Positions 27,053 to 54,852 of a stretch of DNA of 64,000 nt are shown here, piece after piece. The notes under the pieces were generated by a model. The model saw only the letters and a program-made list of their open reading frames with translations. It did no database searches and had not been told where the DNA came from. The translations under genes were made by a program, and so were the position numbers. The stretch comes from Mycobacterium sp. DL440 (GTDB lineage: Bacteria; Actinomycetota; Actinomycetes; Mycobacteriales; Mycobacteriaceae). The DNA is taken from the NCBI RefSeq assembly GCF_011745145.1, contig NZ_CP050191.1:1912984-1976983 (forward strand), read 5' to 3'. Numbering within the stretch: position 1 is the stretch's first letter; each line of letters opens with the position of its first letter.

Positions 27053-27076
27053 CAGGTTTCGGTTCCTTCCGTTGGG

Positions 27077-27104: not shown

Positions 27105-27114
27105 GCTGCGGGTT

Positions 27115-30611: not shown

Positions 30612-30623
30612 CGTGGCCTTCTG

Positions 30624-30645
30624 TTCTTCGCGCAAGCGCTCATCA
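30624..30645 (-). repeat. Stop/start junction motif, copy 1
   Basis: On the minus strand the 22 bases run TGATGAGCGCTTGCGCGAAG followed by AA. They begin with the stop codon of the FGGY kinase and end just before the SorC ribosome-binding region. Near-identical copies occur at 49791-49812 and 51370-51391, each at the 3' end of a gene on this strand. The core GAGCGC(T/C)(T/A)GCGCGA is close to palindromic. Confidence 0.7.
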
Positions 30646-32196: not shown

Positions 32197-32198
32197 AT

Positions 32199-33230: not shown

Positions 33231-33322
33231 GGATTCGGGCGGCACGCCCGGGGGATCGGGGCAGGGGCCTCGATGGTCATCGACTTGTCTCCTCGTGTGT
33301 TGTCAGGGCTGGAACTCGACGG

Positions 33323-38465: not shown

Positions 38466-39743
38466 TCACCGGATCCGGGCCAGGCCTTCGGCGTCGAGGT
38501 AGACACCGGGCAGCACGCCGGGCCGGTAACTGGTGACGGTTCGGACATTGCAGAGCGGCAGCCACAGGCCGCCGGTGAGGATCCGGCGCTGGATGTCATC
38601 CACCAGCTCGCGACGGTCATCGGGGTCGGTACACCTGAGCTGGGCGTCGAGCAGGATGTCCAGTTCATCTGATCCGGTGCGGCGGTTCATGTTTCGCTGG
38701 GTCACGGCGAACTGGTAGCGCAGCAGGTCGGGGTCGCTGCCGGTGAAGTAGAAGAACCGGAAGTCGTAGTCACCGGCCTGCTGGCGGTTGCGCAGTTCCG
38801 GGAAGTCGACGTCGGCGAGGATCAGCTCGATGCCGTGTTCGCTCCACTGCGCGGCGACCTCGGTGAGGACAGCGGCGTCGATGGGGGAGAACGTGCTGTT
38901 GAAAACCACCTCGAACGACAACCCCCGCGCGCCTGCGGTGGCAAGGAGCCGGCCGGCCGTCACCGGATCATAGGTCAGGTCAGCGGAGCAGTCCCGGTAC
39001 CCGTCGGTCGTCGGGGTGAGCACCGACGACGCGACGGAGTATCCCTCGGCATCGAGGATCGGCTCCAGGGCGGAGCGGTCGATCAGCAGCGACAGCGCAC
39101 GCCGAACGCGGGCGTCGGTCAGCGGACCGCGGGAAGCGTTGGGACACAATCCGTAACTGATCCCCGGGTTGTGTATCTCGGCGACGCGGTAGCCGTCGAT
39201 CGGCCCGGCGTACAGGTCACCGATGTCGGCCTGTTCGAATATCAATCGGCGCGATCCGTCGGTCACCCCGCCGGTGACCTGCTGCCATCGGCCGGTGCCC
39301 AGCCCGTGCGTGTTGCGGATCGCCAGGTTGACACTGGCCAGCGAACGGAGGAACGCCGCATTGTGATGTACGAAGTGAAACGTCACGGTGTCGGTCTCGG
39401 CCTCGGCCGAGTCGAGCCCGGCGAGCATCGTCACGGCGGCCGGGAGCGGTGAAATGTTTTTGAGCGCAGTGATGTCGGCGAAGCTCTGTGCGACGGTGGC
39501 CGCGGTCAGGGGTGTGCCGTCGGAGAAACACCGGTCGGGACGAATCGACAGGACCAGGGTCAGCGGGTCGCGGTAGTGCCACGAGGTGGCCAGCCACGGC
39601 AGCAGTGTGCTGGTCTTCGGATCGGCATCGAGCAGGCTCTCATAGACCAGCCGACAATACGTCTTCGAGATGCTGTTGTAGGCCAGCCGTGGATCGTCGG
39701 AGAGCTGATGGGTCGGCCAGCCGAACGTGAGGTCGTGCATCAT
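38466..39743 (-). CDS. SBP_bac_5 (oligopeptide-binding type) protein without signal peptide
   Basis: The 425-residue product has the DppA/OppA fold features LAYNSISKTYCRLVYESLLDAD, RCFSDGTPLTAATVAQSFADI, ARVRRALSLLIDRSALEPIL and YDPVTAGRLLATAG. It begins MMHDLTFGWPTHQLSDDP, with no signal peptide or lipobox, so it should be cytoplasmic. No ABC permease or ATPase for peptides is nearby. Its ATG overlaps the stop of the MFS gene (ATGATGA), so they are translationally coupled. The closest known parallel is the cytoplasmic SBP domain of the E. coli regulator SgrR, though no DNA-binding domain is attached here. It may bind the substrate of the MFS protein or of the FAD monooxygenase inside the cell. 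Confidence 0.82.
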   Translation of the reverse strand: MMHDLTFGWPTHQLSDDPRLAYNSISKTYCRLVYESLLDADPKTSTLLPWLATSWHYRDPLTLVLSIRPDRCFSDGTPLTAATVAQSFADITALKNISPLPAAVTMLAGLDSAEAETDTVTFHFVHHNAAFLRSLASVNLAIRNTHGLGTGRWQQVTGGVTDGSRRLIFEQADIGDLYAGPIDGYRVAEIHNPGISYGLCPNASRGPLTDARVRRALSLLIDRSALEPILDAEGYSVASSVLTPTTDGYRDCSADLTYDPVTAGRLLATAGARGLSFEVVFNSTFSPIDAAVLTEVAAQWSEHGIELILADVDFPELRNRQQAGDYDFRFFYFTGSDPDLLRYQFAVTQRNMNRRTGSDELDILLDAQLRCTDPDDRRELVDDIQRRILTGGLWLPLCNVRTVTSYRPGVLPGVYLDAEGLARIR

Positions 39744-41032
39744 CGCACCGGCGCCAATCTCGTTGCCTGCCAAGCCGAACGGGCCACCAACGTCGCAACC
39801 AACCCAATCACCGTCACCAGCACGGCCACGCCGCTGAACAGTTGGGTGCCCAGGCCGTCGATCATCGTCGCCCCGGCCGCCACTCCGATCGCCGCGCCCA
39901 GCGCCCGAAGGTAGTGATACAGGCTGGAATCGAAGGGTATCTCTGTCGAATTGGTCAGCACATTGCTGGCCAACGAACTCCACAGGAACCCCATCGCGCA
40001 GCCCATCAACGCGGCACTGCCCAGCGGCACGTGTCCGAACAGGCTCAGACCGGCGACGATCAGGAACGCCGAGCCGATGCACACCAGCCGGGTGCTCTTC
40101 CGATTGTCGCCGGGCCTGCCGAATTTCAGCATCGGGATCAGCCCGGCGAAGAACGCCATCGGCAACAGGAACACCGCCGAGCCATATGAATTCAGCCCGC
40201 GCACCTGTTGCAGGACATAGACCACCGAGAGGGTGAATACGTTGGTCGCGATGCCGGCCACGAAGACCACGACCAGACTTCGGGACAGGACCCGCGTGTG
40301 GTGCCGGCTGCGCAGAACGATCACAGTGATCCCGAGCAGGATCGCCACCACGAGCAACGTCGCCTTGGTATGCAGCGCGGTAGACCATCCGATCGCCAGG
40401 AAGAGCACCAGCTGAACCACCGCGAGAGCGACCACCGGGGTCGCCCCCTGCGTGGTCGTGGCGTCGTCGTCGGCATCTGCCGTCCGTGGCGAGATGGCCA
40501 ACAGCGCCATCGCCACGACGGTGGTCACCACGGTCTCGTAGGGGAACGACCGCCAGCCCCACAGATCGTTGAGCAGCGCGGTGATCAGCGGTGAGCACAA
40601 TGCGGAGGCTGACACCACCAGGCCCCACGCACCCAGGACCGCCGAGTGATGGTCGGGATAGAACTGCGCCCGGATGATCCGGAATATCTGGGGTGCGAGC
40701 ACTGCCGAGGCGATGCCCTGCAGGAACCGCAACGTGATGAGGACCCAGAACTCGGGGCTGAGGCCGGCGGCGATACCGAGAACGGCCAGCACCGCCGAAC
40801 TGGCGAAGAACGCGGCCGTAGGCCGGTAGCGGTGTGACAGCAGGCCCGCGGGTAGCAACGCCAGACAGAATCCGGCCAGGAATGCCACGCCGATGTAGGC
40901 AGCCTGTGCGAACGGGATGCCGAAGTAGTCGGCAATCGCCGAGTTCAACAGCACAGCCGACGACGAGTTGGAGTAGAGGGTGTATTCGGTCAGGTAGAGC
41001 GACGCCGCTACGGCGTATAGGGACGGCTTCAT
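39740..41032 (-). CDS. MFS transporter
   Basis: The 430-residue product has 12 or more hydrophobic segments and MFS landmarks: GFCLALLPAGLLSHRYRP (motif A position, about residue 58) and LRFLQGIASAVLAPQIFRIIRAQF (about residue 102). It is DHA-like and may export a small molecule. A ribosome-binding site (CGAGG) lies 7 bases before ATG 41032. It is coupled with the binding-protein gene through ATGATGA and heads a three-gene operon ending in the FAD monooxygenase. Substrate unknown. Confidence 0.88.
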   Translation of the reverse strand: MKPSLYAVAASLYLTEYTLYSNSSSAVLLNSAIADYFGIPFAQAAYIGVAFLAGFCLALLPAGLLSHRYRPTAAFFASSAVLAVLGIAAGLSPEFWVLITLRFLQGIASAVLAPQIFRIIRAQFYPDHHSAVLGAWGLVVSASALCSPLITALLNDLWGWRSFPYETVVTTVVAMALLAISPRTADADDDATTTQGATPVVALAVVQLVLFLAIGWSTALHTKATLLVVAILLGITVIVLRSRHHTRVLSRSLVVVFVAGIATNVFTLSVVYVLQQVRGLNSYGSAVFLLPMAFFAGLIPMLKFGRPGDNRKSTRLVCIGSAFLIVAGLSLFGHVPLGSAALMGCAMGFLWSSLASNVLTNSTEIPFDSSLYHYLRALGAAIGVAAGATMIDGLGTQLFSGVAVLVTVIGLVATLVARSAWQATRLAPVR

Positions 41033-41631: not shown

Positions 41632-42405
41632 TCAGGCTTCGACGGTCTCGACTCCTGCGTTGTGGAGGTGTTCGCGCCAGGTGTCGTCGAGTTCGTTGGT
41701 GACGAAGACGTCGATGTCGGTCCAGCCCAGGGACCCGGCGATCGCGCGCTGACCGATCTTGGACGAGTCGGCGAGGATCACCACCCGCCGGCCTTGCCGG
41801 GCCATCGCGGTGGCGATCTCCGCGTCCAGCAGGCTGTTGAACCGCACTCCCATGTCGAGATCGACTCCATCACAACTGAGAAACGTGGTGTCCACGCTCA
41901 ATTGGGAGATCGCCGCCGTCGCCAACGGCCCGCTCGTCCCGAATGACGAGGCGCGCAGCGATCCGCCGATCACGATCACCTCGAAGGAGGGCACGCTCGC
42001 GAGGCGCTCTCCGATGTTGAGACCTGAGGTGGCGACCCAGAGTGGCTGCGCTTGAGAGGCGAGCTCCTCTGCCAGCGCAAGCGTGGTGCTGCCATCGTTG
42101 AGCAACACTGACGAGCGAGGTTTCACCAGGGCGGCGGCCGCCAGGGCGATGGCACCCTTCTCCCGCGCGTTGCGTCTGCGCCGGAGGTCGAACGCCTCGT
42201 CCAGGGTGCTCGATGCTGCCGCCAATGAGGCTCCACCCCGGACTCGCTTGATCAGGCCCTGCCGTTCGAGCGCAGACAGGTCGCGTCGGATCGTCGGGGT
42301 GCTGGCCCCCGTCGCGCGCTGCATGTCGTCCAGCGATGCGAACGGTTGACGCGAAAGCAGGTCAAGCAGGTGCGCGTGACGTTCCTCGGCGTGTTGTTCG
42401 GCCAC
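41632..42405 (-). CDS. DeoR/GlpR family transcriptional repressor
   Basis: The 257-residue product has the N-terminal DeoR helix-turn-helix (RHAHLLDLLSRQPFASLDDMQRATGASTPTIRRDLSALERQGLIKRVRGGA, residues 9-59) and a DeoR C-terminal sugar-phosphate sensor (VLLNDGSTTLALAEELA, FLSCDGVD, RVVILADSSKIG). It is divergent from the kinase-dehydrogenase-EutH cluster across about 100 bases and is its obvious repressor; family members are released by a phosphorylated polyol or sugar. Confidence 0.9.
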   Translation of the reverse strand: MAEQHAEERHAHLLDLLSRQPFASLDDMQRATGASTPTIRRDLSALERQGLIKRVRGGASLAAASSTLDEAFDLRRRRNAREKGAIALAAAALVKPRSSVLLNDGSTTLALAEELASQAQPLWVATSGLNIGERLASVPSFEVIVIGGSLRASSFGTSGPLATAAISQLSVDTTFLSCDGVDLDMGVRFNSLLDAEIATAMARQGRRVVILADSSKIGQRAIAGSLGWTDIDVFVTNELDDTWREHLHNAGVETVEA

Positions 42406-42422
42406 AGCCGTACACCCTACTG

Positions 42423-42439
42423 TCGATCAATATCGATCA
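42423..42439 (+). promoter_or_regulatory. Candidate DeoR operator: direct repeats one helical turn apart
   Basis: TCGATCA occurs at 42423-42429 and again at 42433-42439, a 10-base period. Related strings follow at 42454-42474 (TGATCG, TTCGATC). This AT-richer divergent intergenic region between the DeoR gene and the kinase gene is where the repressor should bind; DeoR-family operators often consist of such direct repeats. Confidence 0.5.
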
Positions 42440-42508
42440 TTGAGTTGCCGAGCATGATCGGTTGTGATTCGATCTGTTGTCGTTATCACTTCGCAATGGA
42501 GGTTGTTG

Positions 42509-44107
42509 GTGACACCACAAGAATTCCCGGCACCGCAGGTGCCGGTGGCGCCGACTCCGTTGACGCGCGGAGGTCCGGTGACCCGGGTATGGGCCGGGAT
42601 CGATCAGGGCACCACGAGTACCCGCACCAACCTCTACGACGATGCCGGCAACTGCGTCGCGACCGCCCGGCGGCAGTCGATCACCACGCACCCGTTTCCG
42701 GGCTGGGACGAACAAGACGGCAATGCTCTGGTCGCGGCCATCGAGGAGACTGTGCGCGAAGCGCTGGCCTCGGTGCCCGGGGCGGAATTGGCCGGCATCG
42801 GCCTGGCCAACCAGGGCGAGTCTGTCATCGCCTTCGACAGGCGCACCGGTGCGCCGCTCTCGAATGCGATTCTGTGGTCAGACCGCCGGGCCGGCACCAT
42901 CATCGGGCGGTTCGCCGGGACCCCGGAAGCGTCACGCGTCCAACAGATCACCGGTCTGCGACCGGATCCGTATTACTCAGCCGCAAAGATCGCCTGGGCG
43001 TTAGTCAACCTTCCTGCGGTCACCGCTGCGGCTGCCGCGGGCACCCTCGCCATCGCAACGCTCGACGCGTTCTTCATTTATCGGCTCGCGCGCGGCGCGT
43101 ATCTGACCGATCCATCCACCGGGAGCCGAACCCAGTTGATGGCACTCGACGAATTGCGGTTCGACGAGGAATGCGCTGCTGCGTTCGGAATCGACCTCAA
43201 CCTGCTTCCGCGGATGGTCGACACCGTCTTCGCCGACGGTCTTCCGACCACCTTGGGCGCGCCGCTGTACGCCAGTGCGGCCGACCAGCTGGCCGCCATG
43301 GCCGCATTGGGTGCAGTCGCCCCTGGCGACACCAAGATGACCTACGGCACAGGATGTTTCATCGACACCAACGTCGGCCCGAATCCGCGTCGCCCCGGCC
43401 ATGGCCTGATGCCGACCTACGGCTGGACCATTCCCGGCGAACCCAAGGCCTGGGCGATCGAGGGCGGCGTGTTCAGCGTGGCCACCGCCGTCGACTGGTT
43501 GGTGAGCCTGGGAATTGCTGAACGGGCATCACAAGTCGGCGAACTCGCCGCGGCGAGCGCTGCGGTATCGAACTTCGATCTGCGCATGCAGCATCCACTG
43601 TTCCTGCCCAGCTTCACCGGAATCGGGGCGCCATGGTGGCGTTCGGAGGCCGCAGGCGTCGTCGCCGGTTTGCGCGCTTCCACGGACCGTCACGACATGG
43701 CGTTCTCGGTTCTCGACGGCATAGCCCAACGAGTGTGCGACGTCGTCGGCGCCATCGACGCGGAACTCCAGACGGCCGCGAGCCTGCGTGCCGACGGGGG
43801 ACTGAGCGTCAACAGGACGCTCATGCAGCGGCAAGCGGACCTGTGCGGGCGGCCGATCGCCATCGCCGATCACCATGACAACACCGCCGCAGGCGCCGCC
43901 GGTCTGGCTGCGATCGGCGCCGGTGAACTCGACCTGGCCGGCCTTGCGTCGCGAACCAAGTTCACCCGCACGGTCGAGCCGGCCTTGAGTGATCGGCATC
44001 GCGAACTCGAGCGTGCTCGCTGGATCGAATTCATCGAATCCACAGCGGCACTCGAGCCCCCAGCGTTGACCACAGCCGCCCACCGGCGGACCGAGGAACG
44101 GAAGTGA
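42509..44107 (+). CDS. Glycerol-kinase-like FGGY kinase with altered substrate motif
   Basis: The product is close to glycerol kinase: GIDQGTTSTRTNLYDDAG, HPFPGWDEQD, TYGTGCFIDTNVG, AIEGGVFSVATAVDWL and LRADGGLSVNRTLMQRQADL. But where E. coli GlpK has NQRET, whose Arg and Glu contact glycerol, this protein has NQGES (Gly103, Glu104). The substrate is therefore probably another polyol or hydroxy compound. GTG 42509 follows AATGGAGG and gives 532 residues with a proline-rich 23-residue leader; GTG 42578, after GCGGAGG, gives a more usual 509-residue protein and may be the real start. It is first in a five-gene operon and overlaps the next gene (TGATG). Confidence 0.88.
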   Translation: MTPQEFPAPQVPVAPTPLTRGGPVTRVWAGIDQGTTSTRTNLYDDAGNCVATARRQSITTHPFPGWDEQDGNALVAAIEETVREALASVPGAELAGIGLANQGESVIAFDRRTGAPLSNAILWSDRRAGTIIGRFAGTPEASRVQQITGLRPDPYYSAAKIAWALVNLPAVTAAAAAGTLAIATLDAFFIYRLARGAYLTDPSTGSRTQLMALDELRFDEECAAAFGIDLNLLPRMVDTVFADGLPTTLGAPLYASAADQLAAMAALGAVAPGDTKMTYGTGCFIDTNVGPNPRRPGHGLMPTYGWTIPGEPKAWAIEGGVFSVATAVDWLVSLGIAERASQVGELAAASAAVSNFDLRMQHPLFLPSFTGIGAPWWRSEAAGVVAGLRASTDRHDMAFSVLDGIAQRVCDVVGAIDAELQTAASLRADGGLSVNRTLMQRQADLCGRPIAIADHHDNTAAGAAGLAAIGAGELDLAGLASRTKFTRTVEPALSDRHRELERARWIEFIESTAALEPPALTTAAHRRTEERK

Positions 44108-45564
44108 TGAACACACAGCGGTATGACATCGCGGTCATCGGAGCCGGCGTCATCGGCGCGGCGATCGCCGCCGAACTATCCCGGTACTCAGTCCGTGTTG
44201 GATGGTTCGAAGCCGCCCACGACGTCGCAGAGGGGGCCAGCAAGGCCAACTCGGCCATCGCGAGCAGCGGATACGATTTGCCGCCTGGAAGCCTGGAATC
44301 CGATCTCATCCGGGAGACCAGCCCCCAATGGGAAACGATCTGCCGGGCCCTTGACGTTCCGTTTCAACGAATCGGAGCATTGTCGCTGGCTTTCGACGAC
44401 GGTGATACCGAGTCACTGACCAGCCTGGTGGCGCAGGCCGCTGAGGCCGGAGTCGAGGCGGAAATGGTGTCCGGCCGGGCGCTGCGCCGGCTCGCGCACA
44501 CCGCCGCGCCCGCTGCTGTCGAGGCATTGCACATACCGGCCGAGGGCATCATCGATCCGATCCGACTGACCATCGGATTCGCAAAGCTCGCCGTAGTCAA
44601 CGGAGTCGAGCTACACCGGTCGACACCCGTCACGGGCTTCTGGCACCACACATCGGGAGAGATCAGCCATATCGTCACTCCGGCCGGCGCCTTCGCCGTC
44701 GGCGCCGTCGTCAACGCGGCCGGGGTGAACGCGGATCTCATCACCGATGCCGCGGCGGCCGAACCGTTCACGATGTGGCCGCGAAAAGGGCAGTTCCTCC
44801 TGCTGGATCGTGCAGTGGGGCCGTTGATTCCCAAGGTCTTGTGCACCGCACCGACGCCGCACACCCGCGGAATCTACGCAGTGCCGACCACGAACCGGAC
44901 GGTACTTGTCGGGCCGACCGCCGACGACGGGCGGGACCGCACGGATAAGGCCACCGACGGGGAGACCCTCGACCGAGTCTGGGAGCGGGCGAGTCGACTG
45001 CTGCCCGACGGGCTCGACCGCCACTACGTGACCAAGGCGTTCTCCGGGTTACGGCCGGCCAGCGACCGCACCTACCGGCTCGAGGTATCGCCGAAGATGC
45101 CGAATCTGATTCACGCCGCGGGCATTCGATCAACCGGTGTTTCCGCAGCGCCCGCCGTAGCCCGCTATGTCAGGAATCTCATCTCCACCGAAGTCATGGC
45201 GCTGACAGCCAAACCGCGTCCGGCCGAGTCTGTTCCCGTGCTGGCGCGGTTGGCCGAGATGACCACCGACGCCGCGGCCCATGAGTTCGCGACCCGGCCC
45301 GGCGCTTCTCCCGACCAGCATCCGATGGTCGTGTGCGCGTGCGAACACGTGACTGCAGCCGAGATCGCGGCCGAATGCCGGGGCCCCCTACCCGCGACAT
45401 CCCTTGACGGCATCCGAAAACGGACCCGCGCCACGGCCGGCCGCTGTCAAGGCGCATATTGCTCGGTGGGCGTCAGCTTCATCCTCTCCGCGGCAACCGG
45501 GGAGCAACCTGGCGAGATCCGGCAAGGTGAACCCGAATCGCAGTGGGAGACCGGTGCCCAATGA
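44107..45564 (+). CDS. GlpA-like FAD dehydrogenase with C-terminal [2Fe-2S] domain
   Basis: The 485-residue product has a DAO-type FAD domain (IAVIGAGVIGAAIAAELSRY and the GlpA-like ASKANSAIASSGYD, about residue 45) and a C-terminal BFD-like [2Fe-2S] domain with cysteines in VVCACEHV (about residue 412) and GRCQGAYCSVG (about residue 450). This is the architecture of anaerobic-type glycerol-3-phosphate dehydrogenase subunit A. It likely oxidises the phosphorylated product of the kinase and passes electrons through the cluster to the next flavoprotein. It starts inside the kinase stop (TGATG; GTG at 44104 is also possible) and overlaps the next gene by 4 bases. Confidence 0.88.
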   Translation: MNTQRYDIAVIGAGVIGAAIAAELSRYSVRVGWFEAAHDVAEGASKANSAIASSGYDLPPGSLESDLIRETSPQWETICRALDVPFQRIGALSLAFDDGDTESLTSLVAQAAEAGVEAEMVSGRALRRLAHTAAPAAVEALHIPAEGIIDPIRLTIGFAKLAVVNGVELHRSTPVTGFWHHTSGEISHIVTPAGAFAVGAVVNAAGVNADLITDAAAAEPFTMWPRKGQFLLLDRAVGPLIPKVLCTAPTPHTRGIYAVPTTNRTVLVGPTADDGRDRTDKATDGETLDRVWERASRLLPDGLDRHYVTKAFSGLRPASDRTYRLEVSPKMPNLIHAAGIRSTGVSAAPAVARYVRNLISTEVMALTAKPRPAESVPVLARLAEMTTDAAAHEFATRPGASPDQHPMVVCACEHVTAAEIAAECRGPLPATSLDGIRKRTRATAGRCQGAYCSVGVSFILSAATGEQPGEIRQGEPESQWETGAQ

Positions 45565-46403
45565 TTACCACGCGTCCACACATTGCGATTGCCGGCTCGG
45601 GACTCGCAGGTTTGCACTGCGCGGTAAGCCTGGCTCCGACGGCCGACGTGACCGTCTACGAACGGCTTCCCGTCCCCGGCGGCGAACACTGGGAGGATCC
45701 CGAACACGACAGGCTGGTTCATCAGGCCCGCCGCGACGGTGTCCGCCTTGCCTCAGGCACCCAGGTCGTCCGCTGGGAAGGTGACCGGATCCTGGCGGTA
45801 GGTGAGCTCGGCGGGATTGCGACAGCGGACGCGCTCGTCGTCGCGACCGGCCATCGACCACCCACCCGCACGGAACTGCGTATCGACGGAAACCGTTGCG
45901 CGGGAGTGGTACCGGCCACGCTGGCACTGCATCTGATCCAGCAGCGAGTTCACCTCGGTCGTCATGTTGTCGTCGTCGGTGACGCCGGCTGGGCGGCCGA
46001 ATGCATTGCCAAGATGCGGTCCGGCCGCAACGATGTCGCCTCGATCGTGTGGGTCGGTGGTCCGGAGCGATCCGTGGACCGAGATGTGATGACCATGCCG
46101 GATGCCAGGGTCAGCGCGACCCACGGCATGCCGAGAATCAGCGGAGTCACCGTGGAAACTCCAACCACGGCAGTACATCTCACGTGCGACTGTTTGATCC
46201 TGGCCGGGCCAGCGCTCCCGTACCGGAACATCGACGGGGCGGTCATGGATGACGAACCCGCCGTCTACGCGCAAGGGAGCGCAGCCATCTTGGCAAATGC
46301 CGCGCAGATCGGCATGGTGGCTGCCCACCGTGCACTGGAATACGCCCAGGCCGAAACCCATTCCCACATACCCGTGCTTCCCAGGATTGGACTGCCCCAA
46401 TGA
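45561..46403 (+). CDS. Short FAD/NAD(P) oxidoreductase (GlpA partner)
   Basis: The 280-residue product has an N-terminal dinucleotide site IAIAGSGLAGLHCAVSLAP, a second ATG-type motif DALVVATGHRPP and a C-terminal segment VYAQGSAAILANAAQIGMVAAHRALEYA typical of pyridine-nucleotide-disulfide-like oxidoreductases. Partners of GlpA-like proteins in such operons are usually 400 residues or more; this one is shorter and lacks the redox cysteine pair. It probably forms a complex with the preceding flavoprotein. ATG 45561 overlaps the previous stop (ATGA), and its own stop overlaps the next ATG. Confidence 0.82.
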   Translation: MITTRPHIAIAGSGLAGLHCAVSLAPTADVTVYERLPVPGGEHWEDPEHDRLVHQARRDGVRLASGTQVVRWEGDRILAVGELGGIATADALVVATGHRPPTRTELRIDGNRCAGVVPATLALHLIQQRVHLGRHVVVVGDAGWAAECIAKMRSGRNDVASIVWVGGPERSVDRDVMTMPDARVSATHGMPRISGVTVETPTTAVHLTCDCLILAGPALPYRNIDGAVMDDEPAVYAQGSAAILANAAQIGMVAAHRALEYAQAETHSHIPVLPRIGLPQ

Positions 46404-46627
46404 AAGTCACCTCACCAGTCGGCGAGTTCCCCTACACCTTCGAGCGGATTCGTGTCGAAGGTTCACGCATCGTCGCCGAAGGCCGGATGGGAACCTGGCC
46501 GGCCCGGATCGAGGTGGGTGTTTCCGATATCCCCCCGGCGATCCGTATCGGCGTGGTGGCGACCGCGCTCGGTGCTCTTGCCGCCGGCGGGTTCCGGAAA
46601 CGCCGAAACCGCAAGCGGCTCGACTAG
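46400..46627 (+). CDS. 75-residue protein with one membrane helix
   Basis: The product has a soluble N-terminal 50 residues (starting MKVTSPVGEFPYTFERIRVE), then one hydrophobic helix (about residues 48-64, IRIGVVATALGALAAGG) and a very basic end (FRKRRNRKRLD) that should stay inside the cell. No cysteines are present, so it is not the DUF1667-type zinc or iron protein seen in comparable operons, nor GlpC. Its tight coupling (ATGA) to the two flavoproteins suggests it tethers them to the membrane. I do not recognise a family. Confidence 0.72.
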   Translation: MKVTSPVGEFPYTFERIRVEGSRIVAEGRMGTWPARIEVGVSDIPPAIRIGVVATALGALAAGGFRKRRNRKRLD

Positions 46628-46682
46628 CTGACCAAGCGGCTACCGCCAACCCACTATTCGGACCTCCGGAAAGAACACATCT

Positions 46683-47942
46683 ATGGCCACATTAGGAAAC
46701 ATCGTCATCTACCTCATGATGGCGTTCGTCGTAATCGGTGCGTGTGCACTGGCATTCCGCGGTGACCGGGGAATCGGTCGAGAATTCAAAGAGGGGATCT
46801 ACGCCCTCGGTCCGTTGTTCGTCCCCGTCGCGGGCATCATGGCCGGGCTGCCATATCTGGCCTGGTTCGTTGAACACGTGCTCGGCAAGATCTATGCCCC
46901 TTTCGGGGCGGACGCGGCCATGGCGGCGACCACCCTGATCGCAAGCGATATGGGCGGATATCAACTGGCCCAAGCGACCGCAGATTCCACCGGCGCATGG
47001 ATGACGGCGTCCATCACCGGGTTCCTCTCGGGCGCCACCATCTCGTTCATCATCCCGGTGGGCCTGGCCATCCTGGATGTGCGTGACCACAAATACTTCG
47101 CCCTCGGCATCATGAGCGGCATCCTGACGGTCCCGATCGGCGTCCTCGTCACAATGACCATACTGATCACCACCCACTCTCCGGTGCGTGACTCGGTGAC
47201 CACCGATGGCCCGTCCACCGCCACCATCGACGGCTACGGCATCGGCGACGTTCTGATCAACCTGCTGCCGGTCATCATCGTCACGGTGGCTATCGCGGCC
47301 GGGCTGTACTTCGCGACCCGGGCCATGATCACCGGGTTCATCTGGTTCGGCCGCATCCTCAACGCGGCGATCTATCTGGTGCTCGCTGTCTCCATCGTGG
47401 ACCACGTCACCGGCTTCTTCAGCTCACGTTTCAGCTGGTGGGGATTCGAGCCGATCATCGCGACGGCAGAAGACCAGATGCGGGCACTGGAAGTCGTCGG
47501 CAATGTTGCCATCGTGCTGGCCGGTGCGTTTCCACTGGTCTACGCGGTCCGGACCTACGCGGACAAGCCGCTCACTGCGATCGGCAAGCGGATGGGCATC
47601 AGCACCGAGGGCACCGCGGGACTGCTTGCCGCCACCACCAACATGCTCGCGGCGTTCCATCTGATCCGCAGCATGCCCGCCAAGGACAAGGTGCTCGTGA
47701 TCGCGTTCGGCACCACATGCTCGGCGCTGATCGGCGATCACCTGGCCTTCACTGCCAACTTCCAACCAAATGTCATCGCGCCGTTGATGATCGGCAAAGT
47801 CGTTGCCGGCGTCACGGCGATGCTGCTGGCCCTGTGGATCGCCGTCCCCACCGCAAAGCGCCTGGAACGCGACGATGCCGAACCTGAGGACGACAAACGC
47901 GAGGACGACGAACGCGAGCCGGCCGAACGCGTCCAGGTCTAG
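46683..47942 (+). CDS. EutH-family permease
   Basis: The 419-residue product has about 10-11 hydrophobic segments and strong resemblance to EutH, the ethanolamine permease: EFKEGIYALGPLFVPVAGIMAGLPYLAW, IASDMGGYQLAQ, FALGIMSGILTVPIGVLV, MRALEVVGNVAIVLAGAFPLVYAV and GDHLAFTANFQPNVIAPLMIGKVVAGVTA. The tail after about residue 395 is a charged repeat-like run of Asp, Glu, Lys and Arg. There is no ethanolamine ammonia-lyase or other eut gene nearby. It lies 55 bases after the 75-aa gene, last in the kinase-dehydrogenase operon, so it likely imports that pathway's substrate. Confidence 0.88.
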   Translation: MATLGNIVIYLMMAFVVIGACALAFRGDRGIGREFKEGIYALGPLFVPVAGIMAGLPYLAWFVEHVLGKIYAPFGADAAMAATTLIASDMGGYQLAQATADSTGAWMTASITGFLSGATISFIIPVGLAILDVRDHKYFALGIMSGILTVPIGVLVTMTILITTHSPVRDSVTTDGPSTATIDGYGIGDVLINLLPVIIVTVAIAAGLYFATRAMITGFIWFGRILNAAIYLVLAVSIVDHVTGFFSSRFSWWGFEPIIATAEDQMRALEVVGNVAIVLAGAFPLVYAVRTYADKPLTAIGKRMGISTEGTAGLLAATTNMLAAFHLIRSMPAKDKVLVIAFGTTCSALIGDHLAFTANFQPNVIAPLMIGKVVAGVTAMLLALWIAVPTAKRLERDDAEPEDDKREDDEREPAERVQV

Positions 47943-48141: not shown

Positions 48142-48873
48142 TCAGAGCTTGCTTGCCGCAGCCTCGTCGAGCAACCACACCGTCCGGTCACGGCCGATCG
48201 CGCCGGCGGCGGGGATGTCCACCGGATCCGCACCACCCACCGCAGCGGCGACCGCGTCGGCCTTGGCCTCACCGGACACCACCAGCCACACCTCGCGCGA
48301 GTTGCGAACCGCGGGCAGTGTCAACGTGATTCGGCGGGGAGGGGGCTTGGGGGAGTTCGGCACGCCCACCACCATGCGGTCGGTCTCACGCACCGCGGCA
48401 GTGTCGGGAAACAGTGAGTTGATGTGTCCCTCGCCGCCCATGCCGAGCAGATGCACGTCGAACTCGGGTCCGGGAGCGTCGAAGTTGGCGGCCAGCAGCT
48501 GTGCGTACCCGGCGGCGGCTGCGGTGAGATCGTCGCCGAATTCGCCGTCGCTGGCGGCCATCGCGTGCACGTTGACGTCCGAGATCCCGACATGATCCAA
48601 CAGTGCCTCGCGGGCCTGCTTGTCGTTGCGCTCTCCGTCGTCCTGCGGCACGAAACGCTCGTCGCCCCAGTACACATGCACCTTCGACCAGTCGATCTCG
48701 CCGCTGCGCTCACCGACGCGCTTGAGGAGGCCGATTCCCGTGCCTCCGCCGGTGAGCACGATGTTGGCATGACCTCGGGCCGAGATCGCGGACGTGATGG
48801 CAGCCACCAACCGATCTCCGGCGGCGGCTACCAGCGTGTCGGCGTCGGCGTAACGCTCGATAACAGTGCTCAT
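48142..48873 (-). CDS. pgl: 6-phosphogluconolactonase
   Basis: It hydrolyses 6-phosphogluconolactone, second step of the oxidative pentose phosphate pathway. The 243-residue product has [36 protein letters not shown] and [15 protein letters not shown], the NagB/Pgl family motifs. ATG 48873 overlaps the opcA stop (ATGA); the frame is open further upstream inside opcA but that is not used. Last gene of tkt-tal-zwf-opcA-pgl. Called devB in M. tuberculosis annotation. Confidence 0.96.
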
Positions 48874-49781
48874 GCGTACTGGACCTTGTCGATTCCCGTG
48901 AGTGCGTCGTAGTAGATTTCGTCGGCATCGAGGCGGCGCAGATCCTCGGCCAGACACTCCTTGGCCTCGCGGCGGGCCAAGGGCACCAACGCATCCGGCT
49001 TGCCGGTGCGGCTCAGTACGGCGGTGACGCCAGACTGCGGACGTACCAGGGTCACGGTTTCGCTGGGCCTGGTCAGCTCGACCTTCAATTCGCCCGTCGT
49101 CCGGGTCACCGGTCCGTCGATCCGGTTGGCCAACCAGCCGGCCAGAATGTCGAGCGCGGGTTCGTCCTTGAGTCCGGACACGAGCGCCGAGGTGATGGGT
49201 TCGTGCGGCGGCTGATCGATCGCCGCGGCCAGCAGCGCGCGCCAGTAGGTGACGCGGCTCCAGGCCAGATCGGTGTCACCGGCGGTGTAACCGTTGAGCC
49301 TGCTCTTGATGCAGGCCAGCGGATCAGCGCCGTTGGTGGCGTCGGTGATCCGGCGAATCGCCAACTTGCCCAACGGATCCTGTGCGGGGACGGCAGGCGC
49401 TAGATCGGGCCACCACGTCACCACCGGGGTGTCCGGCAGCAGGAACGGCGTCACCACGCTGCTGGCGTGACTGGCCAGCGGACCGGACAATCGCAGCACC
49501 ACCACCTCGTTGGCGCCGGCGTCGCGGCCCACCCGCAGCTGGGCGTCGAGCCGGGCTTCGGTGGTGAACCGGTCCCCGGGAATGACCACGATCACGCGGC
49601 ATGGATGCTCACGGCTGGCCGCGTTGGCCGCGTCGATCGACTCCTCAAGCAGCGCTTCGGAATCGGTTGCGATGACAAGAGTCAGCACCCGACCGAGGGT
49701 GATCGCGCCGCCCTCCTCACGCAGGGCGACGATCTTCTTGTTGATCGCCCCGGTATTGGTCTCTGGCAGATCGACAATCAT
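48870..49781 (-). CDS. opcA: OpcA, glucose-6-phosphate dehydrogenase assembly protein
   Basis: OpcA is an actinobacterial and cyanobacterial partner that activates or assembles glucose-6-phosphate dehydrogenase. The 303-residue product starts [18 protein letters not shown] and contains [29 protein letters not shown], characteristic of the family. It follows zwf by 28 bases, and the zwf stop lies in a 22-base junction motif that also supplies its ribosome-binding site (GAGGAA, about 9 bases before ATG). It overlaps pgl by 4 bases. Confidence 0.95.
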
Positions 49782-49790
49782 AGTGTTCGG

Positions 49791-49812
49791 TTCCTCGCGC
49801 TAGCGCTCGTCA
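49791..49812 (-). repeat. Stop/start junction motif, copy 2
   Basis: On the minus strand the 22 bases start TGACGAGCGCTAGCGCGAGG and end AA. The first three bases are the zwf stop codon and the last six (GAGGAA) are the likely ribosome-binding site of opcA. It contains the perfect palindrome GCGCTAGCGC. Other copies: 30624-30645 and 51370-51391. Confidence 0.7.
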
Positions 49813-51357
49813 CGGCCGCCTCCATTCCCGGCCCGACCGGCGCAGCATCTCGAACGCCGATTCGGGACCCCATGTTCCGGACTCATACGGATCGGGCTTA
49901 CCGTGCGTGGCCCAGTAATCCAACGCGGGATCGAGGATCTTCCAGCACAATTCGACCTCGGCGTTGACCGGGAACAGCGACGGCTCGCCCAGCAGCACGT
50001 CGAGGATCAGGCGCTCGTAGGCCTCGGGTGACTCTTCGGCGAAGGCCGAACCGTAGGAGAAGTCCATGCTGACATCGCGGACCTCCATGATGTGCCCCGG
50101 AACCTTGGACCCGAAGCGCAGAGTGATGCCTTCGTCCGGTTGCACCCGGATCACCAGGGCGTTCTGACCGAGCTCATCGGTCATCGTGGCATCGAACGGC
50201 AGGTGTGGCGCACGCTTGAACAACAGCGCGATCTCGGTGACCCTCCGGCCCAACCGTTTTCCGGTACGCAGATAGAACGGCACGCCGGCCCAGCGGCGGG
50301 TATCCACGTCCAGGGTGATGGCGGCGAACGTCTCGGTGGTCGATGTCTTGGAGAAGCCCTCTTCGTCCAGCAGCCCGACGACTTTCTCGCCGCCCTGCCA
50401 ACCCGCGACGTACTGGCCGCGGGAAGTGGTCTCGTCCAGCGGCTCGGCGAGCCGGGTTGCCGAGAGCACCTTGATCTTCTCGGCTTGCAGCTCCGCGGGG
50501 GAGAAACTCACCGGCTCCTCCATCGCGGTCAGCGCGAGCAGCTGCAGCAGATGGTTCTGGATGACGTCTCGGGCGGCACCGACTCCGTCGTAATAGCCGC
50601 CGCGCCCGCCGAGGCCGATGTCCTCAGCCATCGTGATCTGCACACTGTCGACATAGTGCGAATTCAACACCGGCTCGAACATCTCGTTGGCGAAGCGCAA
50701 GGCCAGGAGGTTCTGAACGGTCTCCTTGCCCAGATAGTGGTCGATGCGGAACACCGACGACTCCGGGAACACACTGTTGACCACAGCGTTGAGTTCCTCA
50801 GCGCTCTTGAGGTCGTGACCGAACGGCTTCTCGATCACCACCCGACTCCAGCTGCCCTCGGGCTTGTCGGCCAGCCCCGACTTCGACAACTGCTCGCAGA
50901 CCTGGGGGAACGCCTTCGGCGGAATCGACAGGTAGAACGCGTGATTGCCGCTGGTACCGCGCTCGACATCGAGTTTGTTCAGGGTCGCCTTCAGCCGTTC
51001 GAACGAGGACTCGTCGTCGAATGTGCCTTGGACGAATCGGAAACCTTCGGCCAACCGGTCCCAGACTTCCTGGCGGAACGGAGTGCGGGCGTGCGCCTTG
51101 ACCGCGTCGTAGACCACTTTCCCGAAGTCCTCGTCCGCCCAATCCCGGCGGGCGAACCCGACGAGTGCGAAGCTGGGCGGCAGCAAGCCGCGGTTGGCCA
51201 GATCGTAGATGGCCGGCATCAGCTTCTTGCGGGCCAGGTCGCCCGTGACGCCGAAGATCACCACCGCACAGGGCCCCGCAATGCGGGGCATGCGCTTGTC
51301 GCGCTTGTCGCGCAGCGGGTTACGCCAGGCGGTCGTGTCGGCGCTGCCCGCGCTCAT
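49810..51357 (-). CDS. zwf: Glucose-6-phosphate 1-dehydrogenase
   Basis: It oxidises glucose 6-phosphate to 6-phosphogluconolactone with NADP. The 515-residue product has the coenzyme site VIFGVTGDLARKKLMPAIYDL (about residue 34), the substrate signature RIDHYLGKETVQNLLALRFAN and VVIEKPFGHDL. ATG 51357 gives the M. tuberculosis Zwf2-like start MSAGSADTTAWRNPLRD; an open frame continues 44 codons further into tal. It is followed by its activator opcA. Confidence 0.96.
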   Translation of the reverse strand: MSAGSADTTAWRNPLRDKRDKRMPRIAGPCAVVIFGVTGDLARKKLMPAIYDLANRGLLPPSFALVGFARRDWADEDFGKVVYDAVKAHARTPFRQEVWDRLAEGFRFVQGTFDDESSFERLKATLNKLDVERGTSGNHAFYLSIPPKAFPQVCEQLSKSGLADKPEGSWSRVVIEKPFGHDLKSAEELNAVVNSVFPESSVFRIDHYLGKETVQNLLALRFANEMFEPVLNSHYVDSVQITMAEDIGLGGRGGYYDGVGAARDVIQNHLLQLLALTAMEEPVSFSPAELQAEKIKVLSATRLAEPLDETTSRGQYVAGWQGGEKVVGLLDEEGFSKTSTTETFAAITLDVDTRRWAGVPFYLRTGKRLGRRVTEIALLFKRAPHLPFDATMTDELGQNALVIRVQPDEGITLRFGSKVPGHIMEVRDVSMDFSYGSAFAEESPEAYERLILDVLLGEPSLFPVNAEVELCWKILDPALDYWATHGKPDPYESGTWGPESAFEMLRRSGREWRRP

Positions 51358-51369
51358 CGCCGTCCTCGG

Positions 51370-51391
51370 CTCTTCGCGCAGGCGCTCATCG
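51370..51391 (-). repeat. Stop/start junction motif, copy 3
   Basis: On the minus strand the 22 bases start CGATGAGCGCCTGCGCGAAG and end AG. The TGA at positions 4-6 of the motif is the tal stop codon. The motif ends 12 bases before the zwf ATG. It differs from copy 1 at three or four positions. Confidence 0.7.
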
Positions 51392-52501
51392 CGTGGCGGC
51401 GTCGAGTTGGCCCTGTGTCGCGTCGAGCAGCTCCTGCCACGACTTCTCGAACTTGTCCACACCCTCGTCCTCGAGCACCTTGAACACATCGACCAGGTCG
51501 ATGCCGACGGCGCTCAGTTTGTCGAAGGTCTCCTGCGATGCCGCCGCAGTCCCCGTGATGGTGTTACCGGTGATCTTGCCGTGGTCGGCGACGGCTTCCA
51601 GCGTCTTTTCCGGCAAGGTGTTCACCGTGTGCGGCGCGACCAACTCGGTGACGTAGAGCGTGTCCGAGTAGTCCGGGTTCTTGACGCCGGTCGACGCCCA
51701 CAGCACGCGCTGTACACGGGCACCTTCGTTCTTGAGCGGCGCGAAACGGTCGCCCCCGAAGACCTCCTCGTACGCCGCGTAGGCCAGGCGGGAGTTGGCC
51801 ACGCCGGCCTTGCCGCGCAGGCCCAAAGCCTCCTCGGAGCCGATCTTTTCCAGCCGGCTGTCGATCTCGGTGTCCACGCGGGACACGAAGAACGATGCGA
51901 CCGAGTGGATCTTGGACAGATCGTGCCCGGCCTCCTTGGCCTTCTCCAGACCGGCCAGGTAGGCGTCCATCACCCCACGGTGGCGTTCGACCGAGAAGAT
52001 CAGCGTGACGTTGACGGAAATGCCTTCGGCGATCACCGCGGTGATCGCGGGCAGCCCGGCAAGGGTCGCGGGAATCTTGATCAGCAGATTGGGGCGGTCG
52101 ACGATCTTCCACAGCTCGATCGCCTGCAGAATCGTCTTGTCGGTGTCGTGCGCCAGCCGCGGGTCGACCTCGATGGACACCCGGCCGTCGATACCGTCGG
52201 AGGCCTCGTACTGCTTGGCCAGGACGTCGCAGGCGTTGCGGACGTCATCGGTGGTGACGGTGCGGATGGTGGCGTCGACGTCGGCGCCCCGCTCGGCGAG
52301 CTCTTTCACCTGGGCGTCGTAGGCGGTGCCCTTCGACAGCGCCGCCTGGAAGATCGACGGGTTGGTGGTCACCCCCACGACGCTGCGGGTATCGATCAGG
52401 TTCTGCAGATTGCCGGTCTGCAGCCGCTCGCGCGACAGATCGTCGAGCCAGACAGATACACCCGCGGCGCTCAGCGCCGCGAGGTTCGGGTTCTGAGTCA
52501 T
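51386..52501 (-). CDS. tal: Transaldolase
   Basis: It transfers a dihydroxyacetone unit between sugar phosphates in the non-oxidative pentose phosphate pathway. The 371-residue product has [18 protein letters not shown] near the start, [13 protein letters not shown] and the Schiff-base lysine segment [16 protein letters not shown]. Length matches mycobacterial transaldolases. It lies 28 bases after tkt in the operon. Confidence 0.96.
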
Positions 52502-52529
52502 GTTCGCCTTCTCCTGCTAGTCGTCTCTG

Positions 52530-54623
52530 CTAGTTGTCTAGGGATCGTTGCGCCGCGGCCGCCACGGCCTCGGGGGTGAAACCGAACTCACGGAACAGCG
52601 TCTTGTCGTCGGCGGAGGCACCGTAGTGCTCGATCGAGACGATCTCGCCGGTGTCTCCGACCAGCTTGTACCAACTCTGCGCCACCGCGGCCTCGACCGC
52701 CACCCGGGCCGACACGGCGGGCGGCAGCACCGAATCGCGGTACTCCTTGGGCTGGGATTCGAACCACTCGACACACGGCATCGACACCACGCTGGCGTTG
52801 ATCTCCTTGTCCGCCAACAGCTTCTGCGCTGCGACGGCGAGCTGGAGCTCGGAGCCGGTGGCGATGATCACCACGTCGGGGTTGTCCTCCGGCGTGCCGC
52901 CCAGCACGTAACCGCCGCGGGAAACACCTTCGGCGCTGGTGCCCTCGAGCACCGGGACGCCCTGGCGCGTCAGGATCAGCCCCACCGGGCCGGTGCTGGC
53001 GGTGCGCTCCAGCACGGTCTTCCACGCGTAGACGGTCTCGTTCGGATCGCCCGGTCGGACCACCGACAGGTTCGGGATCGCCCGCAGTGCCGCGAGGTGT
53101 TCGATCGGCTGGTGCGTCGGGCCGTCCTCACCGAGTCCGATCGAATCGTGCGTCCAGACGTAGATCGGATCGATGTTCATCAACGAGGCCAAACGCACGG
53201 CCGGCCGCATGTAATCCGAGAACTGGAGGAACGTTCCGCCGTAGGCCCGGGTCGGACCGTGCAGCACGATGCCGGACAGGATCGCGCCCATGGCGTGCTC
53301 ACGGATACCGAAATGCAGGGTGCGGCCGTACCAGGTCGCATTCCAGTCTTCGGTCGAGATCGACGGCGGCCCGAACGAATTCGCGCCCTTGATCGTGGTG
53401 TTGTTGCTGCCGGCGAGATCGGCCGAACCGCCCCACAGCTCGGGCAGCGTCTGCCCGACGGCGGCCAGCACGGCACCGGACGCGGCGCGGGTCGCCACAG
53501 GCTTGGAATCGAGGTCCCAGTGCGGAAGGTCGGCGTCCCAACCCTCGGGAAGCTCCTTGGCCTGCAGCCGGTCCAGCAGGGCCTTGCGCTCGGGCTCACG
53601 CTTGGCCCAGGCGTCGAAGGTCACCTGCCACTCGTCGTGCACCTGCTTACCGCGGGTCACCAGCTCACGGGTGTGGGCGATGACATCGTCGCGCACCTCG
53701 AAGCTCTTGTCGGGGTCGAAGCCGAGGATCTTCTTGGTGGCGGCCACCTCGTCGGCGCCCAGCGCCGAGCCGTGCACACCACCGGTGTTCATCTTGGTGG
53801 GGGCGGGGTAGCCGATGATAGTGCGCAGCGCGATGAACGACGGCTTGTCGGTGACGGCCTTCGCGGCGGCAATGGCTTCTTCGATACCGACGACGTTCTC
53901 GCCGCCCTCGACCTCCTGGACGTGCCAGCCGTAGGCGCGGTAACGCGCGGGCACATCCTCGCTCAGCGCGATGTCGGTGTTGTGCTCGATGGAGATCTTG
54001 TTGTCGTCCCAGAACACGATGAGATTGCCGAGCTGCTGGGTGCCCGCGAGCGACGACGCCTCGCTGGTGACGCCCTCTTCCATGTCGCCGTCGGAGGCCA
54101 CCACGTAGATGTAGTGGTCGAAGGGGCTCTCACCCGGGGCGGTGTCCGGATCGAACAGGCCGCGCTCGTAACGAGCGGCCATCGCCATCCCGACCGCCGA
54201 CGCCAGCCCCTGGCCCAGCGGGCCGGTGGTGATCTCCACACCCTTGGTGTGGTGGTACTCGGGATGGCCCGGAGTCAGCGAGCCCCAGGTGCGCAGCGCC
54301 TCGATGTCGGCCAGTTCCAGGCCGAAACCGCCGAGGTACAGCTGGATGTAGAGGGTGAGGCTGGAATGCCCGCAGGACAGCACAAAACGGTCCCGGCCGA
54401 TCCAGTGGGTGTCGTTGGGATCGTGGCGCAGCTGCCGCTGGAACAGCGTGTAGGCCAGCGGTGCCAGGCTCATCGCAGTTCCCGGGTGGCCGTTGCCGAC
54501 CTTCTGCACCGCGTCAGCCGCAAGCACCCGAGCGGTGTCGACGGCAACGCTGTCGACTTCGGTCCAGTCATCTGGGTGGTTGGGCTGGGTGAGTGCGGTG
54601 ATCTCTTCGGCGGTGGTCACTAA
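52530..54623 (-). CDS. tkt: Transketolase
   Basis: It transfers two-carbon units with thiamine diphosphate. The 697-residue product has KVGNGHPGTAMSLAPLAY (about residue 35), the cofactor motif ASDGDMEEGVTSEASSLAGTQQLGNLIVFWDDNK and the central FGIREHAMGAILSGI. GTG 54623, after GAGGAAGTGAG, gives the start VTTAEEITALTQPNHPDDWTE as in M. tuberculosis; a frame 16 codons longer exists. First gene of the pentose phosphate operon, divergent from ctaB across 229 bases that must hold both promoters but show no obvious element to me. Confidence 0.97.
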   Translation of the reverse strand, partial: LVTTAEEITALTQPNHPDDWTEVDSVAVDTARVLAADAVQKVGNGHPGTAMSLAPLAYTLFQRQLRHDPNDTHWIGRDRFVLSCGHSSLTLYIQLYLGGFGLELADIEALRTWGSLTPGHPEYHHTKGVEITTGPLGQGLASAVGMAMAARYERGLFDPDTAPGESPFDHYIYVVASDGDMEEGVTSEASSLAGTQQLGNLIVFWDDNKISIEHNTDIALSEDVPARYRAYGWHVQEVEGGENVVGIEEAIAAAKAVTDKPSFIALRTIIGYPAPTKMNTGGVHGSALGADEVAATKKILGFDPDKSFEVRDDVIAHTRELVTRGKQVHDEWQVTFDAWAKREPERKALLDRLQAKELPEGWDADLPHWDLDSKPVATRAASGAVLAAVGQTLPELWGGSADLAGSNNTTIKGANSFGPPSISTEDWNATWYGRTLHFGIREHAMGAILSGIVLHGPTRAYGGTFLQFSDYMRPAVRLASLMNIDPIYVWTHDSIGLGEDGPTHQPIEHLAALRAIPNLSVVRPGDPNETVYAWKTVLERTASTGPVGLILTRQGVPVLEGTSAEGVSRGGYVLGGTPEDNPDVVIIATGSELQLAVAAQKLLADKEINASVVSMPCVEWFESQPKEYRDSVLPPAVSARVAVEAAVAQSWYKLVGDTGEIVSIEHYGASADDKTLFREFGFTPEAVAAAAQRSLDN

Positions 54624-54852
54624 GCTCACTTCCTCGTCATCTATCTGCTGGCATGTGCGCGCAGTTGCCATGCTGCTACGACAAACACCCTAGTGGGGCG
54701 GACTCATCCGATGCAGACTGGTTCTCGCACCGATACCCGCTCGTCTACCCGGTTGTTGCCCCGAACAGACCCTGCGGTGCAGAGGTGTGCGGGCCGCGGT
54801 CTACCATCGTGTGTAGTAGAAGCCGCGTGACGCCACCCGAGGAGTTATTTGC

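Follow-up and report, generated by a model that had tools for sequence, protein, structure and literature searches.

Membrane lipids are a plentiful source of ethanolamine, whose use, in the routes that we know, proceeds by ammonia-lyase, gamma-glutamylation or phospho-lyase chemistry. Ethanolamine is also the one ligand that we know for both EutH permeases and the binding protein EtoX. Eat and EutH are named as ethanolamine transporters in two reviews (PMC9397018, PMC5821096), and EtoX, like its homologue in C. salexigens, binds ethanolamine (PMC10132767). We analyzed a 64,000-nucleotide stretch of the 6.38-Mb genome of Mycobacterium sp. DL440 (contig NZ_CP050191.1, positions 1,912,984 to 1,976,983), hereafter called the window. 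It contains an operon for an FGGY kinase, a DAO-family FAD dehydrogenase with a [2Fe-2S] domain, a short FAD protein, a 75-amino-acid one-helix protein and an EutH-family permease, whose nearest relatives are found in Mycolicibacterium and Mycobacterium. We propose, giving it an even chance, that this operon lets the cell use a small amino alcohol, with ethanolamine as the likeliest candidate; the substrate would be converted to its O-phosphate and then to an aldehyde phosphate and ammonia, leading to pentose phosphates.

Each part of the operon resembles a described system and departs from it at identifiable points. The kinase shares with GlpK the FGGY fold and all compared pocket residues but one, and differs by a change of Arg83 to Gly. 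The flavoprotein is like enzymes of the GlpO/GlpA type in its DAO domain, Ser47 and Arg320, but has no His51. Clostridial GlpA-FAD-DUF1667 sets (L100, L107) share with it four Cys and an FAD partner gene, whereas the window operon lacks a DUF1667 gene and has the one-helix protein instead. A set of loci termed group C below, of which the Pseudomonas operon PA1487-PA1491 is typical, shares the DeoR regulator, the FGGY kinase with Gly83, the DAO-BFD flavoprotein and the FAD partner, with a divergent EutH in one Pseudomonas locus; it differs in keeping His51 and in an FAD partner of 412 amino acids against 286 in the window, and no homologue of the 75-amino-acid protein was found there. PA1487 of Pseudomonas aeruginosa has been listed as a possible glycerol kinase (PMC8151288). 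Canonical eut systems (eutBC with EutH or Eat) have in common with the window the EutH family and the likely substrate, ethanolamine, but the window operon has no ammonia-lyase gene, its EutH falls in a separate clade, and eutB lies elsewhere in the genome. The EtoX TRAP/gamma-glutamyl-ethanolamide pathway activates by glutamylation (PMC10132767), whereas the window route would do so by phosphorylation; its type of binding protein is linked to group C kinase/flavoprotein operons.

Recurrence of the operon

The genes from the kinase to the 75-amino-acid protein overlap by 4, 22 and 4 bases, and a gap of 55 bases precedes EutH. This is the set and order described in the initial annotation; all genes lie where it had placed them, and their families are backed by Pfam. 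The block was found in eight distinct loci, the window counted (group A: the window, L013, L014, L015, L016, L017, L018 and L079; L081 and L080 duplicate L014 and L016, respectively), and EutH adjoins it in six of them, that is, in five of seven relatives. Because the block recurs in this way, the gene set exceeds chance, and the possibility that EutH would prove to be unlinked in relatives did not come true. In L015 the EutH gene (10610-11829) is split over two reading frames, through a frameshift or an assembly error.

The operon is rare: a flavoprotein match at 1e-100 was present in 9 of 198 sampled genomes of the same genus, the window's own included, and these nine loci comprise four of group A, four of a sister type (group B, L082-L085) and one of a third arrangement (L086-L088). 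A phylum-wide EutH search gave matches in 8 of 396 genomes, and all seven non-window genomes were examined; a class-wide flavoprotein search of 394 genomes gave 45 with a match, 12 of which were examined. Neighborhoods were inspected for 6 of 33 plasmid EutH records and 10 of 18 plasmid flavoprotein records. When the family of the L084 flavoprotein was searched for, 4 of 401 genomes matched, one of them new (G952, 99% identical, on a contig of 5.2 kb). Group C comprises 17 loci with an FGGY kinase carrying Gly83, the flavoprotein, an FAD partner and often a DeoR gene; the table of residues omits L102, where the residue motif was unmatched, and L096 is counted among the flavoproteins of group C, its kinase not having been found there.

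The kinase retains a glycerol pocket changed at one residue

Against the TIGR01311 model of GlpK the window kinase scored 364 bits, below the cut-off of 590, and its best solved relatives are glycerol kinases. Residues are numbered as in E. coli GlpK. Six of the seven glycerol-pocket residues are kept, and only Arg83 is changed. The same holds beyond the window: Gly occupies the Arg83 position in 8/8 group A and 16/16 group C kinases (the window and 23 relatives), and these 24 proteins keep Glu84, Trp103, Tyr135, Asp245, Gln246 and Phe270, with Glu or Asp at 306. Arg83 is present in both true GlpKs of the window genome and in five solved GlpKs that were aligned. The initial annotation had allowed for an ordinary GlpK; the score and the loss of Arg83 speak otherwise.

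The roles of the pocket residues were taken from PfGK, in which the corresponding numbers are 246/247/271 and Arg83 touches the glycerol and is held to Glu306 by a salt bridge (PMC2680290). With Gly in place of Arg83, the rest of the glycerol pocket is unchanged but two of its acids lack a partner, and these might suit an ammonium group. The window FGGY protein is therefore predicted to be an amino-alcohol kinase.

The flavoprotein lacks a catalytic histidine

The best relative of the window flavoprotein in the PDB is MpGlpO from Mycoplasma (4x9m, E value 4.5e-33). It scored 198 bits against the GlpO type II model (cut-off 460) and 105 bits against GlpA (cut-off 553), and it lies under every curated cut-off for glycerol-3-phosphate (G3P) enzymes that was compared. 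Ser47, Arg320 and the four BFD Cys residues are kept, but the position of GlpO His51 is occupied by Ser in the window and in L015, and by Ser, Cys or Gly across group A, so that the His is lost in 8/8. With these scores and the lost G3P-oxidase base, the suggestion that the dehydrogenase might be an ordinary G3P enzyme fell away. Group B has Asn at this position in 4/4 proteins, with Ser47, Arg320 and the four Cys retained; L086-L088 have Val, Val and Cys, respectively, and Ser47 is missing as well. His51 is kept in 17/17 group C proteins and in the 2/2 clostridial DUF1667-type proteins tabulated.

His51 is described as the base for the C2 hydroxyl in GlpO and in L-2-hydroxyglutarate dehydrogenase, where mutation shows that it is needed; in the extract of the same source, a GlpO-type His base is not listed among the conserved residues of D-amino acid oxidase, an amine oxidizer (PMC10726252). 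The carbon oxidized adjoins CH2-O-P in G3P, phosphoethanolamine and serinol phosphate alike, and so the same site could serve for each. We predict that the DAO/[2Fe-2S] flavoprotein oxidizes the C-N carbon of a phosphorylated amino alcohol, and the oxidation step is probably a deamination. Since group C keeps the His, this argument carries most weight in groups A and B.

EutH and other carriers

The window EutH is the only EutH match in its genome. Its score against PF04346 exceeds the cut-off of 25 (Table 1), it lies under the cut-off of NCBIfam NF011668 (540 bits against 575), and no solved EutH relative was found among structures. In a tree, the EutH proteins of group A and L082 formed a clade with 100/100 support, split from eutBC-linked EutH at 100/100, and the window protein thus belongs to a subfamily distinct from the latter as judged by sequence. 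It is 76% identical to EutH of L082 and 55% identical to those of L083-L085. The initial annotation supposed that EutH imports a non-ethanolamine substrate here; this is not needed, since ethanolamine is the one ligand that we know for EutH and EtoX alike.

Three unrelated types of carrier accompany the kinase/flavoprotein set: EutH, a TRAP binding protein and an APC permease. One of the three is present in 10 of the 17 group C loci. Pseudomonas L024 has a divergent EutH; a TRAP binding protein is encoded in L098 (Tistrella), L099 (Paracoccus), L103 (Rhizobium) and L104 (Chelatococcus), and an APC permease in L078 (from the window genome), L089, L094, L105 and L106. Two of the four TRAP proteins, those of L098 and L099, were compared with solved structures and match PDB 4uab/4xf5 at 1e-143 and 2.8e-139; these entries show Csal_0678 of Chromohalobacter with ligands of ethanolamine type. 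In Chelatococcus L104 the group C set has genes annotated eutB and eutC beside it, and Paracoccus L099 has glutamine-synthetase-, aldehyde-dehydrogenase- and alcohol-dehydrogenase-family genes like those of the EtoX operon, of gamma-glutamyl-ethanolamide type; each was seen once. L090, one of the remaining loci, encodes a distant APC permease together with a relative of glutamine synthetase.

Some side observations concern these loci. L078 is a second, paralogous operon of group C in the window genome (G000:C1:4580400-4586900), with DeoR, an APC permease, an FGGY kinase (NQGET), a His-containing flavoprotein and the FAD partner. A DUF1937 protein accompanies the kinase/flavoprotein set in Pseudomonas L024 (11296-11652) and Agrobacterium L106 (11950-12309), the two copies being 65% identical. 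In the actinobacterial loci L026-L028, an EutH of the window's subfamily lies beside fusions of a nucleotidyltransferase and a choline-kinase-like protein, which resemble LicA/LicC; there EutH, like LicB, may be a source of choline or ethanolamine with which the surface is decorated.

Sister loci with an aldolase and a CbbY-like HAD protein

All four group B loci encode the His-less flavoprotein, the short FAD protein, a class II ketose-bisphosphate aldolase, a HAD protein, EutH, an APH kinase, which takes the place of the FGGY kinase, and a TAL_FSA-like protein (Pfam assignments were run on L082 and L084). The solved proteins most similar to the HAD of L082 are CbbY from a plant (4uav, 7.4e-54) and from Rhodobacter (4uar, 9.6e-42), with the next protein at 9.2e-13; the L082 HAD shares 59% identity with those of L083-L085. 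CbbY is known from Calvin-cycle repair, whereas the group B HAD sits beside a kinase, a flavoprotein and an aldolase. Xylulose-1,5-bisphosphate is made by aldolase from dihydroxyacetone phosphate (DHAP) and glycolaldehyde phosphate, and CbbY hydrolyzes it (PMC10212915). The group B aldolase and CbbY-like HAD thus point to glycolaldehyde phosphate, which phosphoethanolamine would be expected to yield on oxidative deamination, and suggest that this is the product in the sister loci. In group C, Agrobacterium L106 has behind the set a class II fructose-bisphosphate aldolase over its NCBIfam cut-off and a relative of class 1 fructose-bisphosphatase below its own.

In the third arrangement, L086-L088, the flavoprotein set is joined by a class II aldolase of FucA type and by an FGGY protein of another kind; genes for an aldehyde dehydrogenase and an APC permease are present as well in L087 and L088, and L086 has an APC relative. 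This arrangement is possibly a related amine pathway. The protein weakly similar to TAL_FSA, coded in all four group B clusters (3728-5212 in L082, 15062-16384 in L084), could be a new transaldolase-like enzyme.

Proposed pathway and its alternatives

In the scheme that we propose, EutH would admit the amino alcohol, and the FGGY kinase would phosphorylate its hydroxyl, a GlpK pocket without Arg83 taking a cationic amine rather than glycerol. The DAO/[2Fe-2S] flavoprotein would oxidize the amine-bearing carbon next to CH2-O-P to an imine, whose hydrolysis would give an aldehyde (or ketone) phosphate and ammonium. Electrons would leave via the [2Fe-2S] domain and the short FAD protein, with the 75-amino-acid protein tethering the complex to the membrane, and DeoR would repress until the phosphorylated intermediate builds up. 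With ethanolamine as the substrate, the product would be glycolaldehyde phosphate; in the sister loci this could condense with DHAP to xylulose-1,5-bisphosphate and be dephosphorylated to xylulose-5-phosphate, while the window strain would depend for this on its housekeeping aldolases or on the adjacent tal/tkt. The initial annotation had left the substrate as a polyol or amino alcohol; pocket, carriers and sister loci are a better fit to a cationic amino alcohol, and the polyol half of that claim is not favored. Ethanolamine is preferred because it is the ligand known for EutH and EtoX, and because the aldolase and CbbY-like HAD imply glycolaldehyde phosphate. We put forward more tentatively a specific form of the scheme, a B12-independent ethanolamine route of mycobacteria, pseudomonads and alphaproteobacteria, with an FGGY (Arg83 to Gly) or APH kinase, oxidative deamination of phosphoethanolamine, and an aldolase and CbbY-type phosphatase leading to xylulose-5-phosphate.

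No description of a phosphorylate-then-oxidize route was found in what was read of the open-licence literature, in which aminopropanediol was not searched for. Neither phosphoethanolamine nor glycolaldehyde is mentioned in the extracts of the two reviews (PMC9397018, PMC5821096).

If the proposal is correct, phosphorylation followed by oxidation would be a further chemistry for ethanolamine, and operons annotated as "glycerol kinase" and "FAD oxidoreductase," PA1487 included, would be explained. A one-residue rule (Arg83 to Gly) would separate amino-alcohol kinases from glycerol kinases, an amine would join the substrates of FGGY kinases, CbbY would act beyond Rubisco repair, and EutH copies without eutBC would become testable.

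Several observations weigh against ethanolamine as the substrate, or against the scheme as a whole. The kinase change in group C comes with a retained His51, so the His argument misses part of the family, and the Gly83 contrast is one with GlpKs only, not with FGGY kinases of known polyol substrates. EutH was not found in the stretches fetched for L014/L081 and L018, and long branches, that of the Pseudomonas EutH among them, were flagged in the EutH tree. Seven of the 17 group C loci (L090-L093, L095, L096, L101) have none of the three carriers at comparable identity, and the group C APC permeases compared are remote from the one adjacent to eutB in the window genome (25% identity for L105, 23% for L106, no match for L078). 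In group B, no NCBIfam equivalog names the kinase, the aldolase or the HAD, all scores being below cut-off; the APH kinases, at 35 and 33 bits, barely exceed the Choline_kinase cut-off of Pfam (29 bits), and that of L082 has GntI, far under its cut-off, as its best-named relative. L083-L085 are close relatives, so the 4/4 of group B amounts to about two lineages. That groups A and B have a substrate in common is something that we infer, since their flavoproteins are only about 41% identical. The aldolase and CbbY-like HAD are absent beside the window operon and in the other seven group A loci, and the window genome has no CbbY orthologue, its best HAD being 31% identical (3.4e-17). A further ethanolamine route would be redundant in a genome that has eutB.

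A three-carbon amino alcohol is the strongest competitor, although on balance unlikely. Serinol would pass through serinol phosphate to DHAP and ammonia, or 3-amino-1,2-propanediol to glyceraldehyde-3-phosphate and ammonia. Either is glycerol with one hydroxyl exchanged for an amine, which agrees with a kinase that keeps the glycerol pocket save for Arg83 and a flavoprotein in which Ser47 and Arg320 of G3P oxidase persist; either route would be complete without another enzyme, which would account for the lack of aldolase and phosphatase in group A. If the substrate is common to both groups, however, serinol leaves the aldolase and CbbY-like HAD of L082-L085 unexplained; these point to a two-carbon aldehyde phosphate, and for this reason we treat serinol as the main rival rather than the first choice. 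A TRIS-degrading Pseudomonas did not grow on serinol (PMC10848231), which says little about the window strain.

Other amino alcohols, such as N-methylethanolamine or aminopropanol, might be phosphorylated and then oxidatively N-dealkylated or deaminated. EutH proteins of the window's subfamily do occur with kinase-type genes and with flavoproteins of the dimethylglycine dehydrogenase (DMGDH) type: L019 has a phosphotransferase gene and a DMGDH-type DAO+FAO_M+GCV_T flavoprotein, and L025 a choline-kinase-family protein and a 45% identical relative of that flavoprotein, to which the fusions of L026-L028 may be added. The window flavoprotein has no GCV_T domain in Pfam, however, and a two-carbon aldehyde phosphate is the better match to the CbbY-like HAD of group B, so we regard this alternative as unlikely.

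A polyol pathway, in which EutH imports a polyol, the FGGY kinase phosphorylates it and the GlpA-like enzyme oxidizes a secondary hydroxyl, would keep to the substrates on which FGGY and GlpA-like families usually act. One context leans this way: in Paracoccus L021 a same-subfamily EutH lies beside a short-chain dehydrogenase/reductase and a gene annotated as D-arabinono-1,4-lactone oxidase. Given the loss of Arg83, the absence from groups A and B of the His that serves as base in C-OH oxidation, and carriers and neighbors of amine type, a simple polyol pathway appears quite improbable.

That the locus is one more glycerol/G3P operon of the ordinary kind, with EutH out of place, is very improbable: glycerol kinases and GlpO are the best solved relatives of its two enzymes, but both proteins fall far under the GlpK, GlpA and GlpO cut-offs, catalytic and pocket residues are altered, and the genome has two true GlpKs elsewhere (743 and 723 bits, above the TIGR01311 cut-off) and three DAO_C (GlpD-type) matches.

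Membership in a canonical eut system was likewise rejected. The only EutB match in the genome lies about 1.57 Mb from the window EutH, beside an APC permease gene and an adjacent eutC read by eye, so the window EutH is not needed for the ammonia-lyase route. These results agree with the initial annotation in separating a substrate-specific import-kinase-flavoprotein pathway from both the glycerol and the canonical eut routes, and its membrane-tethered redox complex remains plausible.

Layout of the locus and neighboring genes

Coordinates are collected in Table 1. GTG at 42509 is the likely start of the kinase, with GGAGG just upstream. The two operator-like elements are recognizable, with substitutions, in the seven mycobacterial group A intergenic regions aligned, and DeoR copies 58-87% identical to that of the window occupy the same position in seven related loci; the effector is presumed to be a phosphorylated intermediate of the pathway. 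A homologue of the short FAD protein follows the dehydrogenase in the loci of groups A, B and C examined, and it is presumed to be the electron-transfer partner. The 75-amino-acid protein has an N-terminal domain, a single C-terminal hydrophobic segment and a basic tail, and matched no family in Pfam or NCBIfam. Its homologues lie 3' of the short FAD gene in 8/8 group A loci and in six of the seven loci L082-L088 (missing in L082), and from its sequence it is presumed to be a membrane anchor.

Table 1. Features of the operon and its surroundings (window coordinates)
Feature	Position	Strand	Basis or remark
DeoR/GlpR-type repressor	41632..42405	-	PF00455 (137 bits) and PF08220; divergent from kinase
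Divergent promoter region with two operator-like elements	42424..42474	.	Alignment of 7 group A intergenic regions
Operator-like element CGATCAATATCGATCA	42424-42439		
Operator-like element TGATCGGTTGTGATTCGATC	42455-42474		
FGGY kinase	42509..44107	+	FGGY_N/FGGY_C (Pfam); ORF opens at 42464
DAO-family FAD dehydrogenase with C-terminal BFD-type [2Fe-2S] domain	44104..45564	+	DAO, Fer2_BFD (Pfam)
Short FAD/NAD(P)-binding oxidoreductase (ORF)	45543..46403	+	Pyr_redox_2/Pyr_redox (Pfam)
75-amino-acid one-helix protein	46400..46627	+	Hydrophobic segment, residues 47-63
EutH-family permease	46683..47942	+	PF04346 (362 bits)
pgl-opcA-zwf-tal-tkt pentose-phosphate cluster, neighbor outside the operon	48142..54671	-	NCBIfam, above cut-off

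In the neighboring pentose-phosphate cluster the pgl, OpcA, zwf, tal_mycobact and tktlase_bact models all score above their cut-offs, and the cluster is a possible metabolic outlet. A pgl gene also lies near the operon in L016 and L018; the fetched stretches of the five remaining group A loci showed none. Elsewhere in the window, no ABC permease gene was seen beside a family-5 solute-binding protein that stands next to an MFS transporter gene, followed by a FAD_binding_3 protein (38466-41032). A sugar cluster on the minus strand (26357-34309) includes deoC, a monosaccharide-type ABC ATPase, an FGGY-like frame (30841-32187) and a relative of galactitol-1-phosphate dehydrogenase that scores below its cut-off.

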